From Vicia villosa (lineage: Eukaryota > Streptophyta > Magnoliopsida > Fabales > Fabaceae), in contig NC_081183.1 of NCBI RefSeq assembly GCF_029867415.1, positions 51,167,133-51,231,132 on the forward strand: 64,000 nucleotides of DNA. Direction: 5' to 3'. The notes beneath the pieces are model-generated. The model did not search any database, was not told where the DNA came from, and worked only from the letters and a program-made list of their open reading frames with translations. Position 1 is the stretch's first letter. Each line of letters begins with the position of its first letter. Below, piece by piece: positions 1 to 56,760 of this stretch. The position numbers and the translations under genes were made by a program.

Positions 1-1
1 A

Positions 2-589
2 AGCAATTCCAAATATGTCGAGTTGGAGGACGAATTCATCGAAACTCCATGCCAATCATTTGAGGTGGTCTCTCCAGATGTCTCTACCACCAAGCATATT
101 CCTGCTACTCCAACTACAACTATGGCTTCTCTCAAAGATGCCAAAGCCACGATTGAACAGGGTGATTGCACAGTATGGGGACAGCTTCCCGATATACCCT
201 ATAAATCTGACAAGCTAGGTCTAGGCTATGATAGTGAAAATCAAAAGAATGATCAAAGTCCTCGTTCTGAAGGATTGATGTCACACTTCGTCAGCCAAGA
301 AGTGAACGCTATTGAAGATGAAGGAGTGTTCATGAACCATATCATTCATCCATATCCAGATGAAATTCCACCCATTTCCATGGGAATGTGGGATGCTGTT
401 CAAGAACCAAACGGCGGGTATAATTATCAGTATGCCGAACCTCAGAATTCTTATATTGCTATGGAAGACCTTACCCCGACTGGATGGGGTGATCAAATTG
501 GAAATGACGAAAGTTTCACAAGTCCTGCCACTGAGCAATATCAAAATCCACCCAAAGAAGTATGGGACACGCTAGAAAAACAGGAATAG
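2..589 (+). pseudogene. Ogre gag-pro 3' end (partial, runs off window)
   Basis: The open frame enters from the left edge and stops at 587-589. It has no catalytic motif. It resembles the tail of the intact Ogre gag-protease frame later in the window (about 44200-45010): both carry a PTGWGD motif, a W(D)xL segment near GKYDY/GGYNY, and strongly acidic stretches rich in Glu, Asp, Pro and Ser. In Ogre elements this tail follows the aspartic protease. No reverse transcriptase frame follows it here; the sequence goes straight to a non-coding 3' region. The parent copy has therefore lost pol, or is a non-autonomous variant. The homology is my reading of shared motifs and order. Confidence 0.7.
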
Positions 590-1066
590 CATTCAGGAAA
601 TGTCCCAATTATCTGGACATCATTCCATCAGAAGAAAATCCCCAAGAGAAACACATTTCTCAGCAAATTCCTCAAAAAGATTTTCTCTTCAAAAGAAGTC
701 TTATCCCCCAGCAGGGTTGTTCCAGATTACTATCTTCAGAAGGTGTGATCCCCGCACCCGGACTTGTTCAGATAGTGCATCGGAGGATTATGCACCTTCC
801 TCATTCCTATTTGAAAGGGCATCAGAACTTCCAGCTACCTTTCATTCTCAAGAGATATTCAAAGATCCTTCAACAGAGTACCAGGGTTCTCAAAGAATTT
901 CCCCAGCCGAGGGTACTCAAACAAGACAAAAGATCATCAACGATCACAATATAGTCATATCCAGATGACTGGCGGAAATTTATTTTCCCAAATAAAAGAT
1001 TGACATCACATTCATACATCATATTCATACATCATATTCATACATCATACATCATACATCATGCAT

Positions 1067-1335
1067 CAGACGGTTCCAGAACGATCTAACATTGCAGATC
1101 TAAAGCGATACCTCAGACGGTTCCAAAACGATCTAACGTTGCAGATCTAAAGCGATACCTCAGACGGTTCCAAAACGATCTAACGTTGCAGATCTAAAGC
1201 GATACCTCAGACGGTTCCAGAACGATCTAACATTGCAGATCTAAAGCGATACCTCAGACGGTTCCACAACGATTTAACATTGAAGATCTAAAGCTGATAC
1301 CTCAAACGGTTCCACAATGATCAACTTTCAAAATC
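1067..1335 (+). repeat. 47-bp minisatellite in Ogre 3' UTR
   Basis: Units begin CAGACGGTTCC at 1067, 1114, 1161, 1208 and 1255, exactly 47 bp apart, with a decayed sixth unit from about 1302 and further CGGTTCC echoes to about 1410. Units 1-4 differ at only a few positions. Tandem repeats just upstream of the 3' LTR are a known feature of plant Tat/Ogre elements and have been proposed as seeds of satellite DNA. Confidence 0.9.
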
Positions 1336-1680
1336 TGAAGCAGAAAAAACTTTGGACAAGTTCCGTAGCAATCATCCTCCAAGACTTAAAGCGGTAACCT
1401 TGGACGGTTCCGAAACAGTCAACACAAAGACTTTCAAATCCTTCATCAAGATATAATCAATGGATTCATTCTGATGAACAAACCCTCAACCCATATTCCA
1501 GGTGGCATCTGAAAGCCCATCTCAGGTAATGATCCAATCTGCCAACAACATTTCGCAGACGACATTCAAATGCAACTTCCAACATCTCTTCTGATCAAGG
1601 TAAGTGCAAATTTTCAGGGCATCTAAATATTCAATCATCTTCTACCTTCAGATTTCAGACAATCTCTTCAGGTTTAAGAA

Positions 1681-1697
1681 GATTGAATAGGGGCAAC
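1681..1697 (+). other. Polypurine tract (PPT), Ogre copy 1
   Basis: A purine-rich GATTGAATAGGGGCAAC lies immediately before the LTR start TGTTATACCCC. The intact Ogre has the closely similar AATAGGGGCATC before its own 3' LTR at 50892. The PPT primes plus-strand DNA synthesis. Confidence 0.75.
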
Positions 1698-2212
1698 TGT
1701 TATACCCCAAAATTTGCCCACATATTTTTCAAGAAAACTCCAATCTGAAAATTAAAAGTCTCATATAATTATGGGTTATTTCAACAAATATCCTAACATA
1801 TGAAACACTTAGTTTTTAGAATTTTTCTTATACAGTAAATTGGCCTGCAGTTGAATTTATTCTTACGCAAACGCCAAATACTGTTTATTACTTCACACAT
1901 GCTATTTATTTATTTACAGATAAATAGTACTGACACAATTGGTACAGAGTTAAATCTTTTTGCAGGCGCAGAATCAGGAAACTCAGACTGTACTGGTAAC
2001 AAGTAGATTATTATTATTATCTTTTGTTTCCCACTAGTCTTTGTACTATATTCCATTATTTTCAAAAATCTTTTCAAATCTCTTTTTCAAAAATCAAATC
2101 TCTCTTTTTCCCAACACTATCATCCACTTTCTTTCAAATCTTACTTTCACTCAAATTTTCCTTTTGTACGGAATCACATCATTCCCCAACGTCTCTTTCC
2201 TTCTTTCCATTC

Positions 2213-2220
2213 TATAAATA
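2213..2220 (+). promoter_or_regulatory. TATA box of LTR-embedded mini-gene
   Basis: A perfect TATAAATA is followed by a CT-rich stretch of about 95 bp leading to the ATG at 2314. This is the normal spacing of a plant core promoter and short 5' UTR. Promoter activity is inferred. Confidence 0.55.
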
Positions 2221-2313
2221 CCTCTCATTTTCTTCCATAAAATCTCACATCAAATTCCAACTCATCTTTCAAATTCCTACCTCATATCTGTTTTCTCTTC
2301 TTCCCTGACAAGA

Positions 2314-2481
2314 ATGGCAAAGTGGATAGAGACACTGTTTCTTACAGTCATCACCATTGCTACGGTGATCATGACTTTCTTCTGCCTGCATAGTCCTGAA
2401 GAGTGTGGACCTGCAATGGTTGCACTCCCAATCATCTACATGTTATTGTTCATAGCATGGGTCATTAACCGTCATTCTTAA
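2314..2481 (+). CDS. Small two-membrane-segment protein encoded inside the LTR (55 aa)
   Basis: The frame starts at ATG 2314, in a strong plant context (A at -3, G at +4), and stops with TAA at 2479-2481. The product has a short hydrophilic start (MAKWIE), a hydrophobic stretch at residues 8-25 rich in Thr, Ile, Val and Phe, a polar loop at about 26-34 with HSPEECGP, a second hydrophobic stretch at 35-51, and a basic end (NRHS). This predicts a membrane hairpin. A TATA box lies about 95 bp upstream and AT-rich sequence follows the stop. No retrotransposon protein has this form, and I do not recognise the family. It may be a captured host gene, an LTR accessory peptide, or a chance frame; the matching promoter spacing, start context and hydrophobicity pattern argue against chance. 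Confidence 0.5.
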   Translation: MAKWIETLFLTVITIATVIMTFFCLHSPEECGPAMVALPIIYMLLFIAWVINRHS

Positions 2482-4095
2482 AATTTGCCGTATTTCTTAT
2501 TTCTTAAATGTACCGTTTATTCGTCGTACTGTTCAATATAGTATGTGATATTTGTACTGTCAGTATTAAATGTTGTACTATTTGTCATAATATTGCTTAA
2601 TTACTAAGATAATATTTTGTGTGTTTTCTGCCAGTCAAATATTCCTATTTCTGTGCATTAAATGATTTTCAGGGTTATTATCGGTAATTTTGCCCGCATA
2701 CCGTAAATATTAGTTATTTATTATGTCTATGTTTTTAACAGGTCATGTAAGTAAACTTTCATTTTTCACATAAAACATAAAACAAAAACAACAAAAAAAA
2801 AAAGAAAATTAACTTTGACTGTTGATTTTTCACTCTAACTGCTACCTGAACAGTCAGTCGACAGCCAAACTGCTGGCAGTACAATTCTCAGTGTTTTGTA
2901 CCATCAATCAAATCAATCTTTCACAATTCAAAATTCCAAGATCTTTTGTGCTAGAAGTCTTCTGAATATCACGCGATTAGCAGAAACTCAACACTGCACA
3001 AAAATCAGGTACGTTTAACTGTCTCCTACACAAACAGTCCCTAATCAGGGTTTTTCTTGTTTTTACAGGAGCAACAAGTTTTTGAGAGCTCAAATGGATT
3101 TCATACACATCCATATATCTCAAAGTACCATCATACAAATTTTCAAACTTCAATTCACTCAGACGCACCGTCAGCAGCTCAAACAGTCAACAGACGACCC
3201 GTTTGACCAAAAAAGTCAACAGACAGTCAAAAATGAAATTTTTTGTCAAAGTCCATATTTTGTCAAAGGATTCATCATTTGATCATTGGATGATCATAAT
3301 TCATCAAGGAAAGATCAAAAATCAACAAAACCCTAAGATTCAAAATTAGGGTTTTTGCCTGAAAAGTCAACTCAACTTTGACTGATCATAACTCTCTCAT
3401 CCTTCATCCAAAAAATTCAAACCAAAGCTCATCTTGAAGGAAATTCAATTATCTTTCAAATGCCATTGATCCCATGGTCATTGGATTCACCATTTGAAAA
3501 ATATGACCAAAGACATTACAGGTCATTTTCAAAGTCAACAAAAAGACACTTTTTTCAAAAGGACACACAAGGAGCTTCAAAAATCATTTTGACATGAGAC
3601 CAAAGGCATTGGTTAGAGGACTCTTTGAGGTTTCCAAAAAGTGCAAGATCTCCTTCATATGACAAAAATTGAAGGATTTACACCTTGTTGAAGTTGGCTA
3701 AATTTTGGGAAAATACATGAAATCAACATTGCTCAAAAATGTATTTTTTCCAAATGGGGCCAAGTTTTCAGCATTCAAACATCATTTCCATGATGTTATG
3801 GGCCTCCCACGACCAAGACTAAGCCCATACCTTTTTTTATCCATTTTTGCATGATTTTATCTTATTTTAAGATTAAAATTAAAAGGAAAATGCATGGATA
3901 ATGGTTAGCTTACAAATCAAGCATGACTCACCTCAAAGAATCTTCATCTTTCTGCAGAGAATTGAAGGGCAAGGCAGGTGCATTGAAGGCAAGATGACTT
4001 GGTCAAGAATTCAAGGTTTTTAATATTAAAAAACCAAAGTTTCAACAAAGGCAACTAAAGACACTTCTTAGCTTCAATTGTAAGCACTCAATGCT

Positions 4096-4103
4096 TATAA
4101 ATA
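4096..4103 (+). promoter_or_regulatory. Probable Ogre LTR promoter TATA box
   Basis: TATAAATA, with GGGGGGCGAGCTCAGAAGC some 30 bp downstream. The intact Ogre LTR has TATAAATAG in a comparable setting (34955), preceded by similar AT-rich sequence with CCAAAG and GAAGATT words. This is the best candidate for the transcription start of the element itself. U3 would then be about 2.4 kb. Confidence 0.5.
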
Positions 4104-5524
4104 AGCTATCATAGTTTAGTAACAAAAGGGGGGCGAGCTCAGAAGCATACATAAGCTCATAACACTTGTAGTCACTTGAAAAAAATTCAAAGAAAACTCA
4201 AATTCGAATTTGTAATTTCAGTCCATTTCAATACAAACTAAGCATTCATACACCTTCCTTGAACATCACTGAAACTATCCCAATCAGTTACAAGCCTTGA
4301 AGCTCACTGAATCGAGCTATACAGGTCCAAATTTGTTCAAACTAAAATCAATTCGTATCTGGTTATTCACACATGTTTAACAAGATGTAGACATACTATT
4401 GAGTTTGGTTTGAGGTGTAGATCATTTCAGGAAACTTAATTGAAGTTTGGACACGTACAAACGAAACCACCATTTTAGGGTTCATAGCTTCAAAATTAGG
4501 GCTTTCTAAATTAGGCAAAATTAGAGGTTCTAATTAGTACCATTGAATTCGCAGGGACAAAACGAATTGAACTGATAGGTCGCGCCAAATTTATGTGTAC
4601 GTTTGACCCTATTCGCTATTTTGCAGGTTTAATAAGTAACCAATTACAGCGCTTTTGGTAAGAAAGCGCTATTAAAAGTCTTGTCTGAAGGTTGAAGACG
4701 AAGACGTGTCACCCCCCTATTGGTTCTGACGCGCGCGTTTTTTTTGAATATAACCCTTGGTTTCAGTGTTTTGCAGGCGTGTCATAAGTGATGTTCCCTC
4801 ACCATCTGGACCATCTGATCTCATTTATGACTCATCCAACGCTCCAGATCACGCGTGCAGATCATACTCCCTCATAAATTTCCACACAGGATCAGTATCC
4901 TTTTATTTTCTATTTTATTTTCTATTTTATTTTAATTTCTTTACAAAATTAATTAAAAATAGTTTTAAAAATCCAAAAAATACACAAAAAATATTTTTAG
5001 ACTTCTAAAATAATATATTATTTTCTGAAATAAAAATATTTTATTTTTCTTCAAAATTTCAATATTTGCATAATTAATTAGTATATATTTATATATTTGC
5101 TTTTTTAATTATTCTAACCAGTCAAAAAATCATAAAAAAAATTGTTCCTTATGTTAAATATTATTTATATATTATAAACTAATTTTGTACATATTTTGAA
5201 TAATTTTATCTTTAAGTTTTAATTATTTGTATAATTATTTACATAATTATGTTTTAATTAACTTAAATCAATTCCAAAAATTCCAAAAAAATTAGTTTTG
5301 TTTTAAAATTAATTGACAAATATTTTGTACATATTTTAAACTTAATATTTAGGTTTAAATCTATTTTCATCTTTTTTTCTTCATTTTAATTTAATTAATC
5401 ACGCATTAATTATAATTAAAACCAATCATAAAAAATCCAAAAACATGCCTTTTATTTTTCTTGCAATTTAAATTCCTAGATAAATGTATAGGATGTCAAA
5501 TTCATGTAAATAGGCTAGTTTACA

Positions 5525-5607
5525 TTTCCCGCACAATCGATGTAATAGCGTAGATTTACTTTCCGCACTTTACATTTCCGCATTTTAATTTCCCGCATAT
5601 ATATAAA
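5525..5607 (+). promoter_or_regulatory. E2F-like TTTCCCGC cluster with TATA box
   Basis: Two perfect TTTCCCGC words (5525-5532 and 5589-5596) flank two shorter TTTCCGC words, and TATATATAAA follows at 5598-5607. TTTCCCGC matches the E2F consensus TTTSSCGC of S-phase promoters. A donor-like AAG|GTAAAT lies about 95 bp further on. Binding is inferred from the motif only. Confidence 0.4.
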
Positions 5608-5700
5608 CTGCGTGTATGTCAAAGATAAAATTGAACCGTTAGATCACTAACTTCAAAGATAAAATATCTGAATCCAATCACAATCACACTTGCACCTCTT

Positions 5701-5709
5701 AAGGTAAAT
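5701..5709 (+). promoter_or_regulatory. Splice-donor-like site in LTR
   Basis: AAG|GTAAAT sits about 95 bp after the last TATA-like motif. A pyrimidine-rich TTTGTTTTTGCAG acceptor-like site ends at 7057, just before the ORF1 start at 7061. Together they could remove a leader intron of about 1.35 kb. The other LTR families in this window have similar donors. Confidence 0.35.
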
Positions 5710-6148
5710 CCCTTCTCATTCTTTTCAAAATCAAAGTCAAAATTCCACTGTTTTGAGTACAAAATCGAACCTTGCGTTTATATCCGGTGAAAGGATAGAT
5801 TTTTAAAGGAAATAGGATAAAGACCTTACAACTCAGGGTAGACCTCCTAGTTTGCTTGCTCAAATCAAAACAAACAAAATTTTCATACACTGTTGTTTTT
5901 CAAAACAAAACTTTCCAAAAAGACAATACTTTGTATACATGCAAACACGGATTATTACAAAGTTAATGTTTTTTTCAAAACATCTTTCGAAAGATAAACA
6001 AGCATTTTGTATACATCCACACACGGATCATTACAAAATTCAAATTACAAAGGTATTTGAAACCACATATGAGCAATTTCAGAGCAATTGAAAAGTCATC
6101 GAAAAACAAGTGAGCTAAGCAAACTTAAGAGCCCATGGATAACCATGG

Positions 6149-6180
6149 ATACAAAGGGTGCTAACACCTTCCCTTTGTAT
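6149..6180 (+). other. Conserved LTR-end hairpin (perfect 10-bp stem)
   Basis: ATACAAAGGG (6149-6158) pairs perfectly with CCCTTTGTAT (6171-6180) around the 12-nt loop TGCTAACACCTT. Equivalent hairpins with a changed stem are at 10311-10343, 38094-38125 and 63287-63318. Confidence 0.75.
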
Positions 6181-6384
6181 AACCTACCCCCTTACCCAGA
6201 ATTTCTTAAAGGTCTTTTTTCTGTTTCTTTTATAAACCTTTCCTTAATTGGATAAAATAAAAGGTCGGTGGCGACTCTGTGAATTTTCAAAAATGCGAAA
6301 GCATTAAGCGATAAAAAAGAGTCAGTTCACGTATCTCTACAGAACAGAGGTATGGCCCGGGATTAAAAAAATCGGAGGTCCACA

Positions 6385-7060
6385 GAACTGGCGACTCTGC
6401 TGGGGAATACTTTCAAAAACAAAATGTTTTCAAAAGGGGTTACCTTAAGAGAATAGATCACTTCGATGTTTTCAATTGATTGACTTGATTGCTCTATTTT
6501 TCAAAGGTTTGTTTGGGTATTTTGCTTGTGTGAAAGATTCTAACCCGAATCTCGAGATACCTTAAGTATATGACAATAGACCAAGGAAACTGTACGGCAT
6601 GTACCGATACGGTTGATCTGGTAGTCATCGTTAGTGCGATACTTTGGTTTATACTGATGTCCCTTGAAAACGATCAAGGAGTATATTAGGCTTCCGAAAT
6701 GTCATTAAACACTAATTTGTCTTAGAACCTTTTTAGTTGAACTTGACTTGTGGCCTATTAAGTGGCTAGCTTTGAAATTGATCGAAGTTAGTTATCCTCG
6801 AGGAATATTTTGATCGGCCGCTCGAGCGCCGTATTGAGATGTTACTTCCAAGGATCATAGAACCCAAATACTATTCTAGGACAGGTTTTAACCAACTCAA
6901 CTTCAGTGGGGAGGGTATCACCTATCAGCTCCATGCAAGCCTTTAAACCTAAGGCTATTGTTTGATTTGTTTTTGTGTGCCACATGTTTGCATCATAAGC
7001 ATATCATTTTTGCACCAAACACTTCAAGGATCAAAGAGTTTACCTTTGTTTTTGCAGGTA
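6385..7060 (+). other. Ogre leader between PBS and ORF1
   Basis: Non-coding. It begins with the PBS and ends with an acceptor-like TTTGTTTTTGCAG|GTAATGG at the ORF1 start. Nothing else is recognised in it. Confidence 0.6.
6389..6406 (+). other. Primer binding site (PBS), Ogre copy 1
   Basis: TGGCGACTCTGCTGGGGA begins four bases after the LTR end. TGG is the expected complement of a tRNA CCA tail. The intact Ogre has TGGCGACTTCACTGGGGA at the same place. Ogre elements are generally reported to use tRNA-Arg; I did not verify the tRNA. An 11-base copy (TGGCGACTCTG) also lies inside the LTR at 6269-6279. Confidence 0.8.
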
Positions 7061-8399
7061 ATGGCTCCCGCCACCAAAGATTACATCCGAATCAACATCT
7101 CAACGGTACCATCTGAACTAAAAGACTTAGTGTCAGAATTCCCCAGGAATGTTCAATTCACTGAAAGGCATGGTCACCTACTCCATTTGGTTACCTCAAA
7201 ATTTGAAGAAGACATGATACGGGTCCTGTTCCAGTTCTTTGACCCAGAACATCATTGCTTTACCTTTCCTGATTACCAGTTGGTACCCACTTTGGAAGAA
7301 TTCTCTGAACTAATGGGATTGCCTGTTCGAAATCAATTACCTTTCACTGGTTTAGAAAGGATTCCCTGAAGTCATTGCTGCTGCTTTACATCTGCAGAAA
7401 TCAGAAATCGAGTCCAATTGGGAAACAAAGAGTGGAGTTAAGGGTTTACTTGCCAAGTTCTTATTGGAAAAGGCTCGACTACTGCTAGAAAACAAAAGTT
7501 ATCCAGCTTTTGAGGAAGTTATGGCACTTTTGATCTATGGGTTGGTTTTATTCCCAAATCCCGACCAGTTCCTAAGTGTACACATCATCAACCTTTTCCT
7601 AATCCGTAACCCGGTACCAACATTGCTGGGAGACATTCTACATTCTCTACACACTCGTACCATGAAGAAACGAGGAACTCTCATGTGCTGTATACCACTA
7701 CTGGCTAGGTGGTTTACATTTCATCTTCCCCGATCAATGTTGAGAAATGAACAAAGAATGCAAAGGTCTCGCAGGATTATGTCTTTGTCTCATTCAGATA
7801 TCCGTTGGAACAACTTCTTTCAAAGAGACATTACTATCATTGATCATTGTGGAGAGTACCCTAATGTGCCACTCCTTGGCATCAAAGGAGGCATCACTTA
7901 CAATCCCTCTTTAGCTCTACGCCAATTCGGATATGCAAGGAGCAACGGTCCTCATGACATGATTATCCATGGCATTGTGTTTGATTACGAGAATGATTCT
8001 CATAGACACCGACGAAGGTTCATACATGCATGGGACAGTGTCTATAGAATAGAAAGCAAAACTCTGGGGCAATGGAATTCTATTCCTATGGAACCTTACC
8101 TCAGATGGGTCCGCACTCATGCTCAGAAACTCCTTATGCCATATCCCGCTGTTCTACCAGTGACTATTGAACCAGAGGTCGAAGGATATGAACCTCAAGT
8201 TATTCTACACCCGGACATGCCAACTGACCTAGAAGAGTTGCAAAAATCTTGGGTTCAACTCAAAGAGGAAAGAGACACCTTCAAATCATACTGTCAAGAC
8301 TATGAGAGAAGGATACTGGAGCTCACCGGACAGCTTCAAGAAGAACAGCAGATCAACACATTCCTGGGGGCAAAGAGAAAGCGTCCACGGGAGACCTGA
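7061..8399 (+). pseudogene. Ogre ORF1, plant-mobile-domain-like protein (frameshifted)
   Basis: Two frames together match the intact Ogre ORF1 at 39179-40714. The first (7061-7369) contains FTFPDYQLVPTLEEF and ends after GLERIP. The second resumes with EVIAAALHLQKSEIESNW, then has ALLIYGLVLFP, NPVPTLLGD, CGEYPNVPL and GGITYNP, a Glu/Lys/Gln-rich C-terminal coiled coil, and stops at 8397-8399. A deletion of a few bases at about 7362-7368 breaks the frame. ORF1 of Ogre lies before gag and resembles the plant mobile domain / aminotransferase-like family; its role in the element is unknown. The ATG at 7061 is chosen because it follows a splice-acceptor-like site and starts the region of similarity. 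Confidence 0.85.
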
Positions 8400-8660
8400 A
8401 GGATCATTTATTCTATTTCTGTCTTGTAAGCCCAAATGAGGCAAAGAAAAAAGAAGCAAAAAAAAAAAAGAGAAATAAATTGATTAACTAACGTTTGTTT
8501 CTTCTTTAACAAATCTAAACTCTAAGATCCTTGAAACATTGCACACACATTTCACTTCATGCATTGCATATACATTTCATACATTGCATTCATATACATT
8601 TGCATTTCATACATTGCATACACATGGCTTCCAGTCATACACATTGCATAACAGGTTCAC

Positions 8661-10034
8661 ATGACGGATTTCTCATCTTCTCGCTGTTTATTTCAGTCAG
8701 AAGAGATGGAATCTGAAATGAGCATCAAGAATCTCGAAGCACAGAATGCCCAAGTTCAAGTGGCAATTCTGGAACTGGCAAAGGGGCAACAAGAACTGAA
8801 AGCCCTGATAATCAAGAAGAAAAAGAAGCCCAAAGGATCTGTAGGTGTGAGTCACCTGAGAAGAAAGATCAAAATTCCAGTCAAAAAGTTCACAAAGCCA
8901 CCGATCCCTGAAACAGTCGGTGATGATGAACAAGAAGACAATCAAAGCAACCAGGGTTCTGCTAAACCCTCTCTCTCTTCAAATGAAGAAAATGATCATT
9001 CTGGGGACGAACCGGATGATGAAAAATACCAACAGCTGGAAGACCGTATGAAAGCTATGGAGATACAAAAAATACCTGGCTTAGATTTCAATGATCTGGG
9101 GCTCATCTCGGATGTTGTTATCCCTCAAAAATTCAAAGTTCCTGTCTTTGCAAAATATGATGGAGTTTCTTGCCCGAAACTACATCTGAGATCCTATGTG
9201 AGGAAGATACAACCTCATACAACAGATAACAAATTGTGGATTCACTTCTTCCAAGAAAGTCTGTCGGGTACACAACTCGAGTGGTACTACCAGCTGGAAA
9301 ATACCAAGGTTCATACTTGGGAAGAATTAGCTGCTGCTTTTTACAAACAGTACCAATACAATGCTGATCTTGCACCAACCCGTACTCAACTAAGGGGCAT
9401 GTCTATGGGACCAAAAGAAAGTTTCAAAGGATATGCACAAAAGTGGAGAGATATGGCTGGAAGGGTTCAACCACCCTTATCTGATCGCGAACTAGTTGAC
9501 ATGTTCATGGGCACTTTAACTGGCCCTTTCTATAGCCATTTGCTGGGAAGCTCATCATCAGGTTTCACTGACCTGATACTGACCGGAGAACGTGTCGAAA
9601 GTGGCATTCAAAATGGAAAAATTCAAATAGGTTCCACCTCTGGTACTACAAAAAGGCCCATCAGCGGAAGAAATGAGGTCAATGCAACACAAATTCAGAA
9701 AAGTCGCAAAAGTGAGCAGCATCAATCTGTAGGGGCAGTTCTGATCTCCACATCTGCACCTCAAAAAGATCAACAGCCAAAACATACGCATCGACCAGAT
9801 GCACCAAGAAGAAATTTCACTAGAATCAACATGCCAATCTCTCAGGCATTGCAGCACTTGCTAAAAGCAGATCTGATCACATTAAAAGGTCCTCCAAAGA
9901 ATGTCAGCAAAGGTATCCTCGACCCTCGGAAGTTGCCTATGAAAAAGGCTAAGGTATCCTCTGGCTGCCTACGAAAGGCTATTCTGATCATTCCCTTGCC
10001 TCTCTATGGCATGGGTCAGTCTTATGGCGAATGA
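8661..10034 (+). pseudogene. Ogre gag (3' truncated)
   Basis: The likely start is ATG 8706 (MESEMSIKNLEAQ), inside a frame open from 8661. The N-terminus is coiled-coil-like with a lysine cluster. The capsid-type gag domain spans about residues 150-330, with KFKVPVFAKYDG, LHLRSYVRKI, WIHFFQESLSGTQLEWYYQL, AAAFYKQYQYN and ESFKGYAQKWRDMAGRVQPPL; the intact gag at 41026 has the same series. Similarity ends at about 9925 (PPKNVSKG). The remaining residues come from LTR-like sequence with repeated AAAGGCT words, so the cysteine/histidine region and the protease are missing. The end is a deletion junction, not a natural C-terminus. Confidence 0.8.
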
Positions 10035-10488: not shown

Positions 10489-10875
10489 ATCATATGACTT
10501 AATTGATACGAATTCCACATCTATTCTATGCTATTAACCCCTAACCCGATAATAGATGATAATCATATAAGTCCCCCTTACCTTAGCCAAATTCTTGAAC
10601 TCTTCCCCTTTCTCTGCTTCTGCACTTTCACGTTCTTCCTCTCTTCTCCTCTTCTGCTCTTTTCACGTTCTTTCTCTAATTTTCTTCTTTTCCTTCTTTT
10701 ATGAAAAATAATAAAATTTAGTAAAAAGGCCTTGTGACTAACACCCCTCCTTTTACTAACACTACCTCGGCCCAAATCTATTATTTTCCATATTTTTTAG
10801 AGAAATGTCAAATAATTCCAATAAAATAATCTAAATCCCAATTAAATTAAATTAAGGAAAATTACGGATGTTACA
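10489..10875 (-). mobile_element. Chromovirus 3' LTR fragment (U3 side)
   Basis: On the minus strand it starts TGTAACATCCG just after the PPT and then resembles the LTR start of the 8-kb element at 53260 and 59036: AT-rich sequence, GGGCCGAGG, GTTAGTAAAA, a GA-rich tract containing AACGTGAAAG twice, then GGCTAAG|GTAAGG. It is cut at about 10489 by Ogre LTR sequence, so only about 390 bp remain of an LTR likely over 2 kb long. Confidence 0.75.
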
Positions 10876-10889
10876 ACTCTCCCCCACTA
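10876..10889 (-). other. Polypurine tract of chromovirus
   Basis: On the minus strand it reads TAGTGGGGGAGAGT directly before the LTR start TGTAACATCC. The other two minus-strand families have TARTGGGGGAGAGT-type tracts at the same place. Confidence 0.85.
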
Positions 10890-10916
10890 AAGAGTTTTCG
10901 TCCTCGAAAACATACC

Positions 10917-11469
10917 TCAAGCAAAGAGTTCTGGATAGGAATCTCACATTTGGCTTTCTAACTCCCAGGTGACGTTTCCATCAGCTGCTCCTCCCCAAGC
11001 TACTCTGACTAAAGCTATTTCCTTGCCCCGCAATTGCTTCAGTCTTCTATCTTCAATCCTCACAGGCAACGTTTCAATCGTTAAGTTGTCTTTAACCTGC
11101 ACATCATCCACTTGGATCACGTGGTATGGATCCGAAATGTATTTCCTCAATTGAGACACATGAAATACATCATGCAACTTGGCAAGCATCGGCGGTAACA
11201 CAATACGATATGCCACTTCTCCCACTCTTTCAGAAATTTGGAATGGTCCAATAAAACGCGGAGTCAACTTCTTTGACTTCAAAGCTCGGCCAATACCCGT
11301 CATAGGAGTAACCTTTATAAACACATGATCTCCCTCTTGAAACTCAAGTGTCTTCCTTCTTTTAACATAATAACTCTTCTGACGACTCTAAGAAGCTTTC
11401 ATCTTCTCTTGAATCATCTTAATCTTCTCCGTAGTCTGTTGTACAATTTCTGGTCCAATCACAACACTC
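10917..11469 (-). pseudogene. Chromovirus integrase C-terminus and chromodomain-like end
   Basis: It continues the integrase after a deletion and frameshift near 11500. Recognisable segments are a GDHVFIKVTP-type start, LTPRFIGPFQI, LHDVFHVSQLRKYISDP and a C-terminal ALVRVAWGG...TWELESQM that fits the chromodomain-like end of Tekay/Del-type chromoviruses. A TAG replaces an expected Gln in KAS-SRQKSYY, and a TGA replaces an expected Arg (CGA to TGA, a CpG site) after ESQM. The natural stop is probably TGA at 10917-10919, nine codons later. The protein would tether and complete integration, but this copy is dead. Confidence 0.75.
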
Positions 11470-12915
11470 TCACCAGCTTCGTACCAACACAAACGGAGCC
11501 ATACCTATACTCGAATGAAAACCGTTATTGTAGGTAAATTCAATCAAAGGAAGATAACTATCCCAAGCACATCCTTTTTCTAGCACACAAGCACGTAACA
11601 AATCTTCTAACGACTGAATTGTCCTCTCAGTCTGTCCATCCGTATGCGGATGATAAGCAGAACTCAATCTCAGCTTAGTACCCAAAGCCTTCTGCAAACC
11701 TTCCAAGAACTTAGACGTAAATCTCGGATCCCTGTCTGACACGATACTCGAAGGAATACCATGTAGACTGACTATCTTCTCAATATATAATTGAGCCAAC
11801 TTTTCCATCGGATAATCCATCCTTACCGGTATAAAATGTGCAGACTTCGTCAACCTGTCCACAACAACCCAGATAGCTTCACAATTCTTCACAGTTCTCG
11901 GCAGACCCGAAACAAAATCCATAGATATGCTATCCCATTTCCACTCGGGAATAAACATCGGTTGCATAAATCCAGATGGCTTCTGATGTTCAACCTTTGA
12001 CTTCTGGCAAGTCAAACAAGAATACACAAACTCAGCAATTTCTTTCTTCATTCCAGACCACAAAAACTGCTTTCTCAAATCAGGATACATCTTGGTAGCA
12101 CCAGGATGAATACTTAATCCACTACGGTGTCCTTCTTCTAAAATACTTCTTCTAAGTTCAGCAACATTAGGAACACAAATACTGTCACCAAACCTTAGTA
12201 ACCCATTCTCGTCAACTCTGAATTCACCGCCCTTGTCTTGGTTAATGAAAGTCAACTTGTCAACTAATTCGATATCAGCCTTCTGACCCTCTTTGATCTC
12301 TTCAAGAATACCACTGGTCAGCTTCAGCATACCCAACTTAACACTAGTAGGAGTACCTTCACATACCAAACTCAAGTCTCTGAATTGTTCGATCAAATCC
12401 AATTCCTTCACCATTAGCATAGCCATATGAAAAGTCTTCCTACTTAAAGCATCAGCAACCACGTTTGCCTTACCCGGATGGTAATTCAAACTAAAATCAT
12501 AATCTTTGAGGAATTCCAACCACCTTCTCTGCCTCATATTCAGTTCTTTCTGGTCAAAGAGATACTTCAGACTCTTATGATCACTAAACACCTCAAACCT
12601 CGAACCATACAAATAATGTCGCCACAACTTCAAAACAAAAACTACTGCTGCCAACTCTAAATCATGAGTCGGATAATTCCTTTCATGCACTTTGAGTTGT
12701 CTTGATGCATAAGCGACTACTTGTTGATTCTGCATCAGTACACCACCTAAATCCATCAACGAAGCATCACAATAAACCACAAATGACTCTGTCGGATTCG
12801 GCAAAATCAAAATAGGAGCACTAGTCAACCTCTTCTTCAGTTCTTGGAATCCTTCTTCACATTTCACATCCCAAATAAAGGCCCGACCCTTCCTGGTTAA
12901 TTTAGTTAACGACAA
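11470..12915 (-). pseudogene. Chromovirus RT thumb, RNase H and integrase core
   Basis: A 481-codon open stretch. RNase H is seen as FVVYCDASLMDLGGVL...VVAYASRQLKVHERNYPTHDLELAAVV and YHPGKANVVADALSR. Integrase follows with an HHCC zinc region (GHRSGLSIHPG...CLTCQ), then the catalytic series MDFVSGLP (Asp), VSDRDPRF (Asp) and HPHTDGQTERT (Glu). It ends out of frame after SIGMAPF, where the usual EALYGRRCRTPL block of plant chromoviruses is missing. That 35- or 37-base loss shifts the frame. The upstream RT portion is in the same frame, separated by TAG and TAA codons. Confidence 0.9.
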
Positions 12916-13089
12916 TGCTAACTTTGAAAATCCTTCAATGAACTTCCTGTAATAACCTGCAAGACCAAGAAAACTACGGATTTCGGAAACTGACTTCGGA
13001 GCTTCCCACTAAGATAGAGCCTCTATCTTGGTAGGATCAACAGCAATACCATTCTTGGAAATCACATGTCCAAGAAAACTGACCTCTTC

Positions 13090-13521
13090 TTACCAAAATT
13101 CACACTTCGACAGTTTGGCAAAAAGTTGCTTCTCTTTTAACAACTCCAACACAGTTCTGAGATGTTCCGCAAGTTCTTCCTCACTCTTAGAATATATTAG
13201 GATATCATCTATAAACACCACCACGAACTTATCGAGATAAGGATGAAATATCCTATTCATATACTCCATAAATACACCAGGTGCATTAGTAACCCCGAAC
13301 GGCATTACCGAATACTCATAATGCCCATACCTTGTTCTGAAAGCAGTCTTCTGAATATCATCGTCTTTCACACGAATCTGGTGATACCCAGACCTCAGAT
13401 CAATCTTACTAAACACATGTGCTCCAACCAGTTGATCCATCAAATCATCAATCCTCGGCAAGGGATACTGATTCTTGATAGTAACCTTGTTCAATTGTCT
13501 GTAATCCACACACAACCTCAT
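13090..13521 (-). pseudogene. Chromovirus reverse transcriptase core
   Basis: The segment runs from [12 protein letters not shown] through [36 protein letters not shown] and the catalytic FIDDILIYS to KCEFW, where TAA replaces the expected Leu codon of the FWLEEV-type motif. The RT active-site Asp pair is intact. It lies in frame with the protease upstream and the thumb/RNase H downstream, so one polyprotein frame has been split by stops. TAG codons at 13612-13614 and near 13531 interrupt the region before it. Confidence 0.9.
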
Positions 13522-13611
13522 TGAACCCTCTTTCTACTTCACTAGCAACACAGGTGCACCCCACGAAGAAACACTAGGACGAATGAACTTCTTCTCAAGT
13601 AATTCATCCAA

Positions 13612-14268
13612 CTACTTCTTCAGTTCAGCCAACTCAGATGGCGACATACGATACAGTGCCATCGATACTGGACAAGTTCCCGGAATCAATTCAATGGAAA
13701 ACTCTACTTCTCTTTCTGGTGGTAATTCATTCACTTCTTCCGGAAAAACTTCTGGAAAATCACATACCACTGGTAGTTCGCCACTTACTACCCTTTCCTT
13801 CGAATTTTCCAATGCAAATAACATAAACACCGTTGCACCATTCTTGATAGCTTCATCCACCTGTCTAGCTGTCATCTCCAGATCATCAGAATTAACTCCT
13901 TTAGGAAAGATTACTGTCTTCAAAAAATAGTTGATGTGAACACGGTTAAATTCTAACCAGTTCATTCCCAGGATTATATCGAGTTGTTTCAACGGAAGGC
14001 ACACTAAGTCCATCCCGAATTCTCTACCAAAAATGTCAACCGGACAATTCAAGCATGCAGACGAAGTAGTTACTGAACCCGACGCTGGAGTATCAATAAC
14101 CATACTTCCATTTATTTCAGATATTTCCAAATTCAATCTCTTAGCACAATCCAAAGAAATAAAAGAATGATTTGCTCCAGTATCAATAATCGCAACTAAA
14201 GGTGTGCCATGAATAAAACACGTACCTTTAATTGGTCTATCCTCCGGAGTGTTCTCTGATCCAGACAA
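13612..14268 (-). pseudogene. Chromovirus aspartic protease and linker
   Basis: The retropepsin active site is IIDTGANHSFIS (Asp29 counted from the Met at 14268), followed by the second-half signature LDIILGMNWLEFN. The linker to RT contains DFPEVFPEEVNELPPEREVEFSIELIPGT and YRMSPSELAELKK, the usual lead-in to the gypsy RT. It is in frame with gag, separated by a single TAG at 14314-14316, so gag and pol were originally one long frame. It ends at another TAG in place of an expected Gln. Confidence 0.9.
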
Positions 14269-14313
14269 AGCAAAAACTTTTCCTCCAGTTTGATTCTTCT
14301 TCGGTTTAGGACA

Positions 14314-15249
14314 CTATGGGCTAATGTGACCCTCTTCACCACAATTGTAACAAGTCACAATCTCCTTCTTACAATCAGCGGTAACATGGCCCACTTCTTC
14401 ACACTTGAAGCACTTCTTCGGGTTCAGCTTGCACTCATTCCTACGGTGCTCGACCTCACCACAGTTATAGCACCTGACAAAAGCACTGGAGTCTCCCCCA
14501 CTAGGCTTCTTCCAACCACCAGTCCTTGGATTACCTCTACCATATGGCTTACCCTTATCCATAGGCTTCTTCCCTTTTCTGTCAACTAACTCGCGAGAGT
14601 GAGATGACTTCAGCTTGAGATTATCTTCCTCGAAGACCCTACTACAGTCCACCAAGTCTACAAATCTCCGAATCCTCTGATATCTGATACCCTGCTTAAT
14701 CTCATCACGGAGACCGTTCTCGAACTTGACGCATTTCGAGAATTCACTAGCTTCATCGTTGTTGTAGTGAACGTAGTACTTCGCCAACTCAACGAACTTC
14801 GAAGCATACTCTGGTACTGTCATGCTACCTTGAACTAGTTCCAGAAATTCAATTTCCTTTCGACCCCTTACGTCTTCAGGAAAGTACCTTCTAAAAAATT
14901 CTCTCTTGAACACAGCCCAAGAAATACCCACACCATCAGTTTCCAGTTCATTCCTGGTGGCCATCCACCAGTCGTCAGCTTCTTCAGACAACATGTGAGT
15001 ACCATATCCCACCTTCAGATCCTCAGCACAATCTATGACTCTGAAGATTCTCTCGATCTTCTTAAGCCACTTCTGAGCACCTTCAGGATCATGCGTGCCC
15101 TTGAACAATGGAGGATTGTTCCTCTGAAAACTGTCCAGCTGCCTGTCAACACCAATCGCAGCTCCATTTGCATTTCCTCCCAGCACACCAGCAATCATGC
15201 CGAGAGCCTCGAAGATAGCATCGTCGTTTCTTCCTACTCTTCCAGCCAT
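14314..15249 (-). pseudogene. Chromovirus gag with three zinc knuckles
   Basis: The 311-codon gag starts MAGRVGRND. The capsid-type domain has FKGTHDPEGAQKWLKKIERIF, DWWMATRNEL, FKREFFRRYFPEDVR and MTVPEYASKFVELAKYY. A basic linker is followed by CCHC knuckles CYNCGEVEHRRNEC and CFKCEEVGHVTADC, and a third, CYNCGEEGHISP, whose last Cys lies just beyond a TAG (expected CAG, Gln). Gag packages the RNA and forms the particle. Apart from this stop it is complete. Confidence 0.9.
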
Positions 15250-15386: not shown

Positions 15387-17696
15387 TGTAACACCCCTTA
15401 CTAACCCCGCGGAAATTTAAAACAATTATATAGATCATACATAATTTCACCACTTCGCATCACATACATCTTACAACATGTTTCACCGCAAAACAACTAA
15501 TCAATATAATACAACTTTCAAAACGGCAACGATGTCATTAATCACATATTCAAATATACAAGTATGATATCAAATACGTCACAACAAACATATCATTATC
15601 ACGTCACAACAAACACCTCGTCATCTCAACAATCCAAACACAATTCAGATGCTATTCAAATGCGACTCGAATGTGACTCAAACTTATGCATATGCATGTG
15701 GTACCATTGGGGTAAAACTCCCGTCTCAAACAGTTTGCCATTGGGCCGTCTCAAACATTTGCCACAAGGGTCGTCTCAAACAATTGCCACTAGGGCCGTC
15801 TCAAACAATGCAATGAATGTGACTCAATGATGCACATTCACAAACACAACATAAACCACTTAATCAACTTAAACGACATAATCAACTTGAACGACATAAT
15901 CAACTTAAACAACATAACCACATCAACTAAACAGCATCAACTCAATGCCAGGGTTCTATGGCAATAACCGTATCATAGTAATTTACCACATCTCAATCAC
16001 ATCATCACATTATATCGACATACAACATCTATTCAACTTAATTCTTATCAACATAATACAACTTATCAGTAATGACCATAGGGTCTACAATAAAAACGAC
16101 AAATTTATCATGTCATAGCAACAATAACAATTCAACATATTGCACAACAACGAAAAACATCAACATGTTACAACAACAACAACAATTCATCATGTTACAA
16201 CAACAACAATTCATTATATTGCACATCAACAACAAACATCAACAAATTCCTCATATTCCCTAATTCAAGTAATCATCATAACAAGTTATATTCAACTTCC
16301 TAATAAAGACATATATATATTCTTAATTAATCACATGGCATCATCATCGACTCATACATATCACATACGCACAATTAATCACCTATAGCATACAACATCT
16401 TTATCAATTATGCATATCATCACATATCTCATTATCTCACTATAAGGAAGACACATATTATCATTTCAATAACATTGTATCGTCAGAAGGAAAACATGCA
16501 TCGAGTTATACTATAACATAATTATGTCATTTCATCGCAAAAAGCATACTTCATATATTAACATAGCATAGTTCATCAATTAATCCTAATAAACATAATA
16601 GGAAACTATATCATATGGATAATTTTATTGCATCATGGTATAGTTCGTTGCGTTAGCTTTCCAACGCTTCGAATGGCGCCTAAAACGGAGTTACGGATCA
16701 AAAGTTACATCATTTCAAAGTTTAGAAAAAGTTCTGCAAAACAGGGTTCGCGGCGCGAACTGAGCGAATTCAAAAATTCCTAACTTTCTGCCAAGCAGTT
16801 CGCGGCGCCAAAAGAGGTTCGCGGCACGAACTGGCAATTTCAGAAACCCCCAAAACACGAAAACAGCATACGAATTTCATCCCAAAACCCCTAAACTCAA
16901 CCCAATCAAGTTGGAAAACACCAAGCATCACGAACAACCACAGAATACATGTTATAAACACAAATACAACACATATTATGGATCTTCTAACATCACAACA
17001 TCATTAAGCATCAATTAAACACATTTCAAATCATCAATCAAGCATTTGTTCGTAAACCCTAACATCTCTACACACAACTTCCATGGAGAATAACATACAA
17101 TCTAACCCATCATATACATCATCATGCCAACCCTTAGAAAGTAAGAACCCCACCCTTACCTTAGTAAAAGCTTCACTTCCTTCAATGGAGCTCTTCCTCT
17201 TCATGCCATAACTTTCTTCTCTTCCTCTCTTCTTTCTCTTCTTTCTCTCCTTTCTCTTCTTTTCCACAAAATGAGTTATGAGGTTTAATCTCTAAAACCC
17301 TAACTCTTACTATCTTTTCTCACTAATGGGCTTAACCCACAATCCAACTTCATATTCTATATTCTTTCCACTTAGGCCCAATTCATAATATTCCTCTAAT
17401 TACTCAATTAAGCCAAATAACACACATAATTGAATAATCACACAACATAACCGAATATTATTTCCAATAATATTCCACATTTACCATCGATCCATAACTT
17501 TAACAATACTGACTCCCAATTGTACTTCTCTGACTAATCCGACTAATAAATCCGACCACATCTTAACTGCTCAAATTAACATATTAATCCAAATTACCCT
17601 TTAGAATAATACCGATAAACCTCGACTTCAACTAATTCCAATGAATAAATCCTCGATCAATTTAATTAAATAATTAATTAAATTTGGGGCGTTACA
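15387..17696 (-). mobile_element. Chimeric LTR A: chromovirus LTR end joined to array LTR
   Basis: The first 41 bp (15387-15427, TGTAACACCCC...CCCCGCGGAAATTT) match the LTR terminus of the 8-kb element at 50985, not that of the array. From about 15428 the sequence follows array LTR B starting at its position 20043, so about 437 bp of array LTR end are missing. It ends ...GGCGTTACA at 17696. Contents match other array LTRs: a 4-fold GGGCCGTCTCAAACA repeat (about 15725-15810), CAA/ACA-rich microsatellite (16100-16240), a GTTCGCGGCGCGAAC palindrome zone (16746-16831, 18 bp shorter than in B-D), a GA-rich tract and a CTAAG|GTAAGG donor-like site on the minus strand. Confidence 0.75.
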
Positions 17697-19605
17697 ACTC
17701 TCCCCCACTTAGAATATTTTCTTCCTCAAAAATCCATCAGACATAACCGTCCTCAACTTCACTTCCAAGTCTCCAATTCTCAATTGCATTAGTCAACACT
17801 TCGACTACCAAAATAACTCAATCTGACTTAAATCCAGTGTCAATTATTCAACATCTCAACAACATACTCGTTAGCAACTTACCAACCATCTCAGGAATCT
17901 CTCGACTCACCAATACTTATGGTAACAACAACTTTAACATGCTTATACTTGGAGATACAATCTCACTTCATTAACTTAGCAACACAGTCATCACTGTTCA
18001 ACAATACCTTGACTATCGATCCTTAAGGTAGTAACAATCATAATCCTCATATACTTGGGTGTTCAACTCCATACTATTACCGTATTAACAACATTCTGAA
18101 CACCATAACACATGCTTACTTCCATTCTCATAATTATACGTGATAATCTTCAACAAACACCAACAACTCTCTCTCCACCTTGTTGTATTACTCCTATAGT
18201 GAAATCAACGTAGCCGGCATACTCAACTCAGTCATAGTACAAAATATCACTTCTTAGTTCTTACTTACAGAGTCCAGCAACAATATCACGATAACCAAAA
18301 CCAGAACACGTATAGCAACTGCGCCACCTTACACATCCGCTGCGCAACTCTGATAATCCATCATAAGTCACTGTCCATGTTATATCTTCCCGTCAATTAC
18401 AAGGTTCACAAGTCTTAATCTAGTTCAGACTTCCTTAAACATCTGTCACAAAATCGTTGTTCACTCGACATTCTCAATCCTTCACTTTGCGATGTTATCT
18501 CACCTATAAACCAGCTTCTCCGACTTGTTCATTACTTCTCAACTATTCATGGATACCTTTCCGTTAATTCACACCAACCAGAGAGTAACTATCTTCACGA
18601 CATAACATTCATCCATTTACGCACTTATCAAGCTAGCAAGATACCTCTATACTATCCAATCACGATTTCGTCTACTATCAACAAGAGATTAAGGGTGATC
18701 AAGTCCTCAATTTGTCAATAGATAGCCGACAACCATAATGGAGTATAAACCATCATTACCAACATTAATAATTTCCTTTTCCAACTCGTACGCATATCAC
18801 CCGAAAAACTATAATTCCATAATTCACTAATCTTCCAAAATCATCCGAACAAAACTAACACCGACGTCTTGCAGCTACTTCCTTAAGCACCTCTGACGAT
18901 ACATCAAAACAAAAGTCATGTAAACCATTATCCGCACTTCTTATTATTGAAATCATACTCATCTCTTCGCATTACCAATTCTTACTCGCGCTTTAGAAAG
19001 TTTCAACAACTTCAACGACTTCTACTACTGCCTCAATCACTTGCATCAATCTTACAACAATACTTCTTTTAATCACTGATCCAACATCGACATCTTATGC
19101 AAGGTTGCTTAACCAACAACTTCACAGTCCATCAACAACACTGGAACATCACACTTTCTAAATTCCATCTTCTAGAATTTATTCTCATTACTTACAGTTA
19201 CCTTCAGACACATCAGGAGCTTGCACCATACTCGCATACCAACAACCTCTACATAGCTCCTCATCCTTCGAGAAGTGAACATCAAAAATTCCTACTCATC
19301 CTCTTCCTCAAGATGCTCCACTTAATTAGCAACAAAAATCTTAAATCCAAGTCATCTTCGATTCAAGAAACAACAAACTCCAACAACACTTGTACTGTCG
19401 CCCTCAGCAGCATACTACATCCTACAACTGAAACATAACCGAGAAGCATAGCTTCTCCCCCACTTAGCTTCAAACCAACTCCTGCAGACAAACGATCAGA
19501 AGAACAACAAGTACTGACAGTGTTTCACACACTCGTCGTGTACACATGAATACACATCATTAAACAACATTGGCCGGACGGACCGACCTGCTCTGATACC
19601 ACTAC
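17697..19605 (-). mobile_element. Array internal region 1 (non-coding, 1909 bp)
   Basis: Minus strand: the PBS (19590-19601, TGGTATCAGAGC) at the right, the PPT TAAGTGGGGGAGAGT at the left. The PPT-proximal stretch has TCTTCCTC-AAAAT...CTTCCAAGTCTCC, faintly matching the pol 3' end of the chromovirus. A hairpin GAGAAGC-ATA-GCTTCTC (19441-19457) joins a second PPT-like tract (19455-19467). A 66-bp block (18672-18737) recurs in the 8-kb element. A 113-codon plus-strand frame (19097-19438) recurs in every unit but has no domain and runs against the element's direction. Confidence 0.8.
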
Positions 19606-22339: not shown

Positions 22340-24248
22340 ACTCTCCCCCACTTAGAATATTTTCTTCCTCGAAAATCCATCAGACATAACCGTCCTCAAC
22401 TTCGCTTCCAAGTTTCCAATTCTCAATTGCATTAGTCAACACTTTGACTACTAAAATAACTCAATTTGACTTAAATCCAGTGTCAATTATTCAACATCTC
22501 AACAACATACTCGTTAGCAACTTACCAACCATCTCAGGAATCTCTCGACTCACCAATACTTATGGTAACAACAACTTTAACATGCTTATACTTGGAGATA
22601 CAATCTCACTTCATTAACTTAGCAACACAGTCATCACTGTTCAACAATACCTTGACTATCGATCCTTAAGGTAGTAACAATCATAATCCTCATATACTTG
22701 GGTGTTCAACTCCATACTATTACCGTATTAACAACATTCTGAACACCATAACACATGCTTACTTCCATTCTCATAATTATACGTGATAATCTTCAACAAA
22801 CACCAACAACTCTCTCTCCACCTTGTTGTATTACTCCTATAGTGAAATCAACGTAGCCGGCATACTCAACTCAGTCATAGTACAAAATATGACTTCTTAG
22901 TTCTTACTTACAGAGTCCAGCAACAATATCACGATAACCGAAACCAGAACACGTATAGCAACTGCGCCACCTTACACATCCGCTGCGCAACTCTGATAAT
23001 CCATCATAAGTCACTGTCCATGTTATATCTTCCCGTCAATTACAAGGTTCACAAGTCTTAATCTAGTTCAGACTTCCTTAAACATCTGTCACAAAATCGT
23101 TGTTCACTCGACATTCTCAATCCTTCACTTTGCGATGTTATCTCACCTATAAACCAGCTTCTCCGACTTGTTCATTACTTCTCAACTATTCATGGATACC
23201 TTTCCGTTAATTCACACCAACCAGAGAGTAACTATCTTCACGACATAACATTCATCCATTTACGCACTTATCAAGCTAGCAAGATACCTCTATACTATCC
23301 AATCACGATTTCGTCTACTATCAACAAGAGATTAAGGGTGATCAAGTCCTCAATTTGTCAATAGATAGCCGACAACCATAATGGAGTATAAACCATCATT
23401 ACCAACATTAATAATTTCCTTTTCCAACTCGTACGCATATCACCCGAAAAACTATAATTCCATAATTCACTAATCTTCCAAAATCATCCGAACAAAACTA
23501 ACACCGACGTCTTGCAGCTACTTCCTTAAGCACCTCTGACGATACATCAAAACAAAAGTCATGTACACCATTATCCGCACTTCTTATTATTGAAATCATA
23601 CTCATCTCTTCGCATTACCAATTCTTACTCGCGCTTTAGAAAGTTTCAACAACTTCAACGACTTCTACTACTGCCTCAATCACTTGCATCAATCTTACAA
23701 CAATACTTCTTTTAATCACTGATCCAACATCGACATCTTATGCAAGGTTGCTTAACCAAAAACTTCACAGTCCATCAACAACACTGGAACATCGCACTTT
23801 CTAAATTCCATCTTCTAGAATTTATTCTCATTACTTACAGTTACCTTCAGACACATCAGGAGCTTGCACCATACTCGCATACCAACAACCTCTACATAGC
23901 TCCTCATCCTTCGAGAAGTGAACATCAAAAATTCCTACTCATCCTCTTCCTCAAGATGCTCCACTTAATTAGCAACAAAAATCTTAAATCCAAGTCATCT
24001 TCGATTCAGGAAACAACAAACTCCAACAACACTTGTACTGTCGCCCTCAGCAGCATACTACATCCTACAACTGAAACATAACCGAGAAGCATAGCTTCTC
24101 CCCCACTTAGATTCAAACCAACTCCTGCAGACAAACGATCAGAAGAACAACAAGTACTGACAGTGTTTCACACACTCGTCGTGTACACATGAATACACAT
24201 CATTAAACAACATTGGCCGGACGGACCGACCTGCTCTGATACCACTAC
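22340..24248 (-). mobile_element. Array internal region 2 (1909 bp)
   Basis: Same layout as internal region 1. It shares variant bases with region 3 (for example AATATGACTTC and ATAACCGAAACC) that differ from regions 1 and 4 (AATATCACTTC, ATAACCAAAACC). Confidence 0.9.
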
Positions 24249-34954: not shown

Positions 34955-34963
34955 TATAAATAG
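34955..34963 (+). promoter_or_regulatory. Ogre LTR TATA box
   Basis: TATAAATAG, matched in the 3' LTR (from 60533). It is the best core promoter in this LTR and would place the transcription start near 34990. Confidence 0.65.
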
Positions 34964-35514
34964 AGGTTCAAATCACTCTTCAAATCACACCAAAACCTCA
35001 CAATTATAGGTTTTCTCTCTTCTTTCTTGAATTGCAAGTTTCAAGTTTCAAAGTGAGGTAGAAAACTCAACCTCCAAACCCTTGAAGTTATGGCCAAAGT
35101 GATGGTTCTAGCAACTCATAAACATCATATGGGATGTGTTTGAACCACTCACACACCCCAAATCACCCCAAAACTCAGATTCACTCTTCAACCTCCATAT
35201 GAACACATGATGAGCCTTATCATGCCAATTTTCATTCCAGTTCATTTCTGTCCAAATTAACACTTCCCACACCTCATATATATCACATATGAGCTATCCA
35301 AACACTCATCATCAACCTGAAACATCAGAATCATCAAGCTCGATTCACACTTAGGCTTAACTGCAGATCGGGTACCACCAACTGCTCCAGGTGTTTTCAA
35401 TTCACTCCAAGCATCCAGACACCTTCCATAATCATCATTGAAGCTATCCAGATTATTACAAAGCATCTGTAACACCTCCAGATCAAAATTCAATTCTCAG
35501 TTTGGCCGTTTTTT

Positions 35515-56756: not shown

Positions 56757-56760
56757 CTAT

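Follow-up and report, generated by a model that had tools for sequence, protein, structure and literature searches.

A possible gene for a two-span membrane microprotein within the LTR of an Ogre-type retrotransposon

The LTRs of plant retrotransposons are usually regarded as regulatory, noncoding DNA. The aORFs or eORFs of these elements are described as accessory ORFs beyond gag-pol that are kept in most copies of a family; their site is the internal region, for the most part the stretch that separates pol from the 3′ LTR (Vicient and Casacuberta 2020, PMC7264820). The same source treats the Env-like ORFs of Athila and Bagy2 as putative transmembrane accessory proteins, and credits gene23 of maize Grande with its own promoter for transcription (PMC7264820). 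The superantigen Sag of the animal retrovirus MMTV (mouse mammary tumour virus) is presented as a type II transmembrane accessory protein with a single span, and is called LTR-encoded, variable and recombining (PMC11998498). The Ogre elements of legumes are portrayed as combining a long LTR with extra ORFs, and the parts of the Ogre papers drawn on here mention no ORF inside the LTR, unlike the case described below (PMC6431247, PMC6317226, PMC4659654). Judged by titles and the beginnings of abstracts, none of the papers listed in searches of the open-licence PMC literature, several lists being capped at 10 to 20 papers, reports ORFs within the LTRs of plant retrotransposons, and an earlier description may exist outside that scope.

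The window, by which the whole 64-kb stretch of DNA analysed is meant, contains near its left end a long LTR in whose first part a TATA box, a leader and a short ORF follow one another. The features concerned are listed below.

1698..6384, plus strand: LTR of an Ogre-type Ty3/gypsy retrotransposon, TGTTATAC...GTCCACA, 4687 bp
2213..2220, plus strand: TATA box TATAAATA, putative promoter of the mini-gene; the residues encoded across the box match in 4/4 long relatives
2221..2313, plus strand: CT-rich leader without an ATG; from the TATA spacing, transcription would start at about 2245
2314..2481, plus strand: ORF of 55 codons plus stop; two predicted membrane helices with the loop CLHSPEECG between them; frame kept in relatives
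2482..2620, plus strand: possible 3′ region of the mini-gene, a weak candidate, with three TGTA motifs, AATATA at 2535 and ATTAAA at 2565
4096..4103, plus strand: further TATA box TATAAATA, from which the genomic RNA may be transcribed

The bounds of the LTR, of which the window holds a single copy and no pair, were placed from two marks, a purine-rich tract (GATTGAATAGGGGCAAC) immediately 5′ of 1698 and a primer-binding-site-like sequence (TGGCGACTCTGCTGGGG) that starts at 6389. Its length falls inside the 1.9–6.5 kb given for Ogre LTRs (PMC6431247). On the 3′ side follow two ORFs recognised by Pfam, DUF7745 at 7464–8399, which here has a disrupted reading frame, and Retrotrans_gag at 8661–10034. 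An extra ORF upstream of gag occupies the position expected in the Ogre lineage, which belongs to the Tat clade of Ty3/gypsy elements, and the order found here matches this trait. The earlier note had taken the carrier for an Ogre LTR, an assignment supported by the LTR length, the purine tract, the primer-like site and these two ORFs. Positions 1–10034 have an internal-LTR-internal layout, as after unequal recombination. To the right an internal region begins with its 5′ part (primer site, DUF7745 ORF and gag), and to the left one finishes with its 3′ part, made up of an ORF up to 589 that looks by eye like the tail of the gag-pro ORF in the other element but has no Pfam match, a 47-bp tandem repeat (1066–1322) and the purine tract; since no ORF of at least 150 aa lies between 589 and this tract, no intact pol is present there.

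A second Ogre-type element occupies 33468–63540. Its direct repeats (33468–38347 and 59037–63540) are 99% identical and are taken as LTRs, the left one having 383 bp extra at 36579–36961, and they enclose a DUF7745 ORF (39179–40714), gag-pro (41026–45012) and pol (45397–48870). The DUF7745 ORF beside the LTR 1698–6384 is 38% identical to its counterpart there in the aligned parts, and the gag is 42% identical over 214 residues. DUF7745 (PF24924) is matched by both Ogre-type ORF1 products, with E values of 5.3e-131 (39179–40714) and 6.2e-70 (7464–8399), whereas the domain named for 57% of Ogre elements is the plant mobile domain PF10536 (PMC6317226). The pol of the second element runs RT, RNase H (RH), RVT_3 and integrase, which is the order given for Ogre and Retand, an extra RNase H between RH and INT being an Ogre trait common to Retand (PMC6317226); no pol was found with the LTR 1698–6384 itself. 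Directly adjoining the right LTR of the second element is a probable nested element (50985–59036) with 2276-bp direct repeats (50985–53260 and 56761–59036) that are 99.7% identical. Parts of the region 10542–15249, which carries on the minus strand retroelement ORFs that by eye look like gag, protease and RT/integrase, are 71–78% identical to parts of 52914–55248 in this nested element. The second Ogre-type element is seated in a tandem array, which spans 15428–33377 as almost four copies of a unit of ~4.63 kb (98–99% identity, strong GC skew of about -0.36 to -0.49) and resumes past the element at 63541 (to 64000).

The ORF starts 616 bp inside the LTR. Its ATG at 2314 is the first one 3′ of the TATA box, none occurring between 2213 and 2314, and its context (ACAAGAATGGCA) has A at -3 and G at +4. 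C+T reaches 70% over 2041–2313, a value in the top 1% of equal-sized LTR windows, and the GC content of the ORF (43%) exceeds that of the 300 bases on its 5′ side (31%) and that of the downstream DNA (27%). In the product, MAKWIETLFLTVITIATVIMTFFCLHSPEECGPAMVALPIIYMLLFIAWVINRHS, two 19-residue windows have a mean Kyte-Doolittle value above 1.6, the maximum being 2.34 in each half of the peptide, and the AlphaFold2 model, made from an alignment of two sequences, consists of two helices (mean pLDDT 84.5, pTM 0.57). The loop CLHSPEECG contains Cys24 and Cys31; charged residues are found at the peptide ends (Lys3 and Arg53) and in the loop (Glu29 and Glu30). The parts that the earlier note had read from the DNA, namely a TATA box, a CT-rich leader, an ATG in strong context and a 55-codon frame with two hydrophobic segments and a Cys/Pro loop, are all confirmed in the sequence. 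Further downstream, TGTA, AATATA and ATTAAA at 2482–2620 are motifs to which we presumptively ascribe 3′-end roles; the TGTA count was rejected as a 3′-end signal, as 3.8% of LTR windows have as many.

The main rival to a gene at this position is a chance frame in CT-rich, stop-poor LTR DNA, the TATA box and ATG context being coincidental and the database relatives being the open subset of copies. This explanation is doubtful. It agrees with the finding that 485 of 500 dinucleotide-shuffled versions of the LTR contain an ORF of at least 55 aa, so that length alone is uninformative. In 26/500 such shuffles an ORF arose that had two hydrophobic segments and a length of at least 40 aa. A combination of features was also scored, by criteria chosen post hoc with the sequence already seen: an ORF of at least 55 aa whose start has G at +4 and a purine at -3, lies 50–150 bases downstream of a TATA box and comes with no earlier ATG. 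Such combinations occurred in 19 of 2000 shuffles when no membrane criterion was applied and in 0/2000 when two hydrophobic segments were added, the latter result speaking against chance. Within the 64 kb, 2314–2481 is the sole complete ATG ORF of at least 35 aa with two such segments, and the window's other Ogre-type LTR contains no such ORF, an absence that counts against the coding explanation.

Codon usage was likewise considered. Synonymous codon choice in the ORF was compared with the trinucleotide background of the LTR (p=0.0005) and with a null of the ORF's own base composition (p=0.015); it resembles that of the window's retroelement ORFs, lying at the 40th percentile of coding draws, and this coding-like choice counts against a chance frame. 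The total codon score is 8.7 in the ORF frame and 5.2 and -8.6 in the other sense frames, but frames on the opposite strand of this DNA score 8.8 to 11.5, and 9.6 is reached by one antisense stretch in another part of the LTR. Since antisense frames equal or exceed the ORF, as may happen if the frame arose by chance, the total score was rejected as proof of coding. The lack of stops was rejected as evidence too, only ~0.04 stops being expected per replacement change, which again suits the chance explanation.

Five relatives of the 55-aa product were found in the protein database (P0001 to P0005). P0001, the sole candidate of a first search (1/1) and recovered again among 2 candidates by an alignment search, is a 38-aa protein that begins at codon 18, covers the last 38 codons and has the same end, with 31/37 residues identical; it may be a broken copy. 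It was rejected as evidence of selection when taken alone, since a neutral simulation retains the frame and stop in 49–67% of runs. A search with the 55 residues and a length window of ~96–306 aa gave P0002, P0003, P0004 and P0005 (206, 174, 239 and 180 aa), 4/4 candidates matching the ORF. Each of the four has the complete 55 codons at its C-terminal end, with the same Met position, stop and length as in the window, and their identities to the window over these codons are 98%, 89%, 85% and 82%, respectively. N-terminal to these codons, each protein is read-through of LTR DNA on the 5′ side of the ORF, the alignment with the window starting at 1878, 1960, 1771 and 1942 in the same order. Because the homology of these four runs through the LTR, the relatives (jgi and other records) are taken to be plant LTR copies.

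In P0002–P0005 the upstream LTR DNA is open for 119 to 184 codons, an openness of noncoding DNA that favours a chance frame for the ORF as well. The homologous upstream DNA is read in differing frames among the copies and is closed in the window; it is therefore taken as noncoding, and the longer frames of 174–239 aa were rejected as the real gene on the same grounds. Across the TATA box the window DNA encodes FPFYKYLSF and PSFHSINTS in two frames, of which the former is found in P0003–P0005 (FYKY across the box) and the latter in P0002 (SINT across the box). The box appears to be kept in 4/4 long relatives, silent changes being invisible in protein. As the protein database displays open frames only, frame conservation is partly ascertained and the sample is biased; a copy broken inside the ORF could still appear as a partial match, as P0001 may do. 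The earlier note had named the lack of a conserved frame in other LTR copies as a refutation, and this check did not refute it, in that 4/4 long relatives, among visible copies that are all open, keep the frame, the ATG and the stop despite repeated frameshifts upstream.

These frameshifts allow the ORF to be compared with its surroundings. A frameshift-tolerant alignment to the window gave 0 frameshifts and 0 gapped codons in 220 ORF codons (4 x 55). Upstream it gave 21 frameshifts, which are not independent (several are common to P0003–P0005 and some depend on the penalty), in 548 aligned codons plus 34 gapped codons; the values for P0002/P0003/P0004/P0005 are 1, 6, 8 and 6 frameshifts and 8, 11, 4 and 11 gapped codons. 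The absence of ORF indels counts against a chance frame; the upstream DNA is CT-rich and partly repetitive and so more indel-prone. Across the deep split between window/P0002 and P0003–P0005, residue differences amount to 11–20% in the ORF and 29–43% in the adjacent leader, the leader compared being the 28–29 residues adjoining the ORF. Residue changes are thus 1.4 to 3.3 times less frequent in the ORF than in the leader, which also argues against chance; in the six comparisons, which are not independent, Fisher p ranges from 0.007 to 0.42 and 4/6 values are below 0.05. The window and P0002 differ at 3/28 leader and 1/55 ORF residues. Within P0003–P0005 no constraint is visible (7–10% differences in the leader, 5–18% in the ORF), the ORF being no better conserved than the leader, as the chance explanation would have it, and between P0003 and P0005 the direction is opposite (ORF 10/55, upstream 8/119, p=0.03). 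The membrane segments show 10 residue changes, of which 2.2 would be expected to be disruptive and none is (P=0.07), and Cys24, Pro28, Glu29 and Cys31 are invariant in 6/6 sequences. P0003 agrees with the window at residues 13, 20, 33, 36 and 37 and with the others at 46, 50 and 55, a mosaic pattern that hints at recombination or gene conversion.

Taken with these comparisons, the unit is best read as an LTR-encoded, separately promoted accessory membrane microprotein that selection has maintained during part of the evolution of the family, a reading that we place just on the probable side. Of the gene-like unit for an accessory membrane peptide suggested in the earlier note, the promoter-like box and ORF within an Ogre LTR and the kept frame stand, while coding is only slightly favoured. 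It is proposed that the first part of the LTR would act as a self-contained mini-gene composed of the TATA box at 2213, the short CT-rich leader and the 55-codon ORF. Its RNA would start at about 2245, apart from the genomic RNA, and be translated from the first ATG; the genomic RNA itself would probably start 3′ of the TATA box at 4096. The resulting membrane microprotein would have been retained by selection during the spread of the element family. The peptide is predicted to insert as a hairpin, with both ends cytosolic because Lys3 and Arg53 are at the ends and Glu29 and Glu30 in the loop; the loop would then be lumenal and may be closed by a Cys24–Cys31 disulfide. Guessing from this topology, the product may be an endomembrane accessory factor that most likely aids particle assembly or movement, or tunes the host cell.

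Another explanation assigns the upstream box to the element itself. The TATA box at 2213 would start some or all of the element RNA, and the 55 codons would be a 5′-proximal upstream ORF that tunes translation of the later ORFs and makes no working peptide. The TATA box, the start distance and the first-ATG position would suit a transcript start of this kind. The boxes at 2213 and 4096 lie 11% and 51% into the LTR 1698–6384, and the other Ogre-type LTR (59037–63540) has TATAAATA at 60533, one third (33%) in, so that position cannot tell the main promoter; it was rejected as proof for 4096, the box of the other LTR falling between the two here, and this finding slightly lowered the weight given to the microprotein reading and its wider form while raising that of an upstream ORF. 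The choice of 4096 rather than 2213 as main LTR promoter is thus unproven, and the ORF probably lies inside U3 if 4096 is that promoter. An upstream ORF is nonetheless improbable, as conservation of the membrane segments and the invariance of loop residues point to a role for the peptide as such, and a leader of >4 kb before the DUF7745 ORF would presumably be unusual. Host-gene capture, which the earlier note had also raised, is very improbable. Under it, the gene for a small membrane protein of the plant would have entered the LTR together with its promoter, the host counterpart persisting; it would account for a complete unit with its own TATA box, leader and codon usage and a GC content above that of the flanks, but Pfam gave no family above cut-off for the ORF (two families, both below), the PDB searched by sequence gave nothing convincing (best E 0.65), and all four long relatives consist of read-through from the same LTR, the plant coverage of the protein database being uncertain.

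Wider searches were made for the peptide and its carrier. Fold searches of the hairpin in viral and PDB libraries gave no match below E 1, which says little because a two-helix hairpin is too generic. The 55-aa ORF had no match in viral contigs, bacterial and archaeal genome contigs or phages, and the region 1900–2800 had none in plasmids. The Ogre primer-binding-site pattern was absent from the viral and genome contigs searched, and the Ogre gag and DUF7745 ORF had no match in the viral contigs; as not one Ogre sequence came out of these collections, failure to find the ORF in them is weakly informative.

The microprotein reading can be taken further. A legume Ogre LTR would carry an independently promoted, selected gene for a two-span membrane microprotein, and every LTR, solo LTRs included, would be a mobile copy, perhaps very many per genome. 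This extension is plausible yet stops a little short of probable, and legumes are the host group that we presume from what is familiar of Ogre elements, as the earlier note had done. Because the ORF lies inside the LTR, a full element would carry two copies and a solo LTR one; if real, the gene could spread with solo LTRs and would evade annotation confined to the DNA between LTRs. Since Ogre elements are given as 54% of the Vicia faba genome (PMC4659654), an LTR gene, if translated, could have a copy number matched by few ORFs in a legume genome, depending on how numerous this particular family is. As an example of possible accessory functions in plant retroelements, the unit is simple and open to testing.

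Legume Ogre elements, with their long LTR and extra ORFs, are the carrier type of this unit. Like the aORFs of plant retrotransposons, it would be an accessory ORF beyond gag-pol that is kept in family copies, the ORF being present in the window and five relatives, of which open frames only are visible. It differs from them in location, since 2314–2481 is inside the LTR and not in the internal region, in its very small size and in its predicted membrane hairpin. A putative transmembrane accessory protein is what it would have in common with the Env-like ORFs of Athila and Bagy2, which lie between pol and the 3′ LTR and not within the LTR. Sag is much larger than 55 aa. Encoding by the LTR is the feature shared with Sag, which belongs to an animal retrovirus and has a single span in place of the two helices predicted here. 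By the tests made, the unit appears to fall neither among the aORFs nor among Sag-like genes and would combine the logic of both, its likeness to Sag seemingly being one of logic and not of descent.
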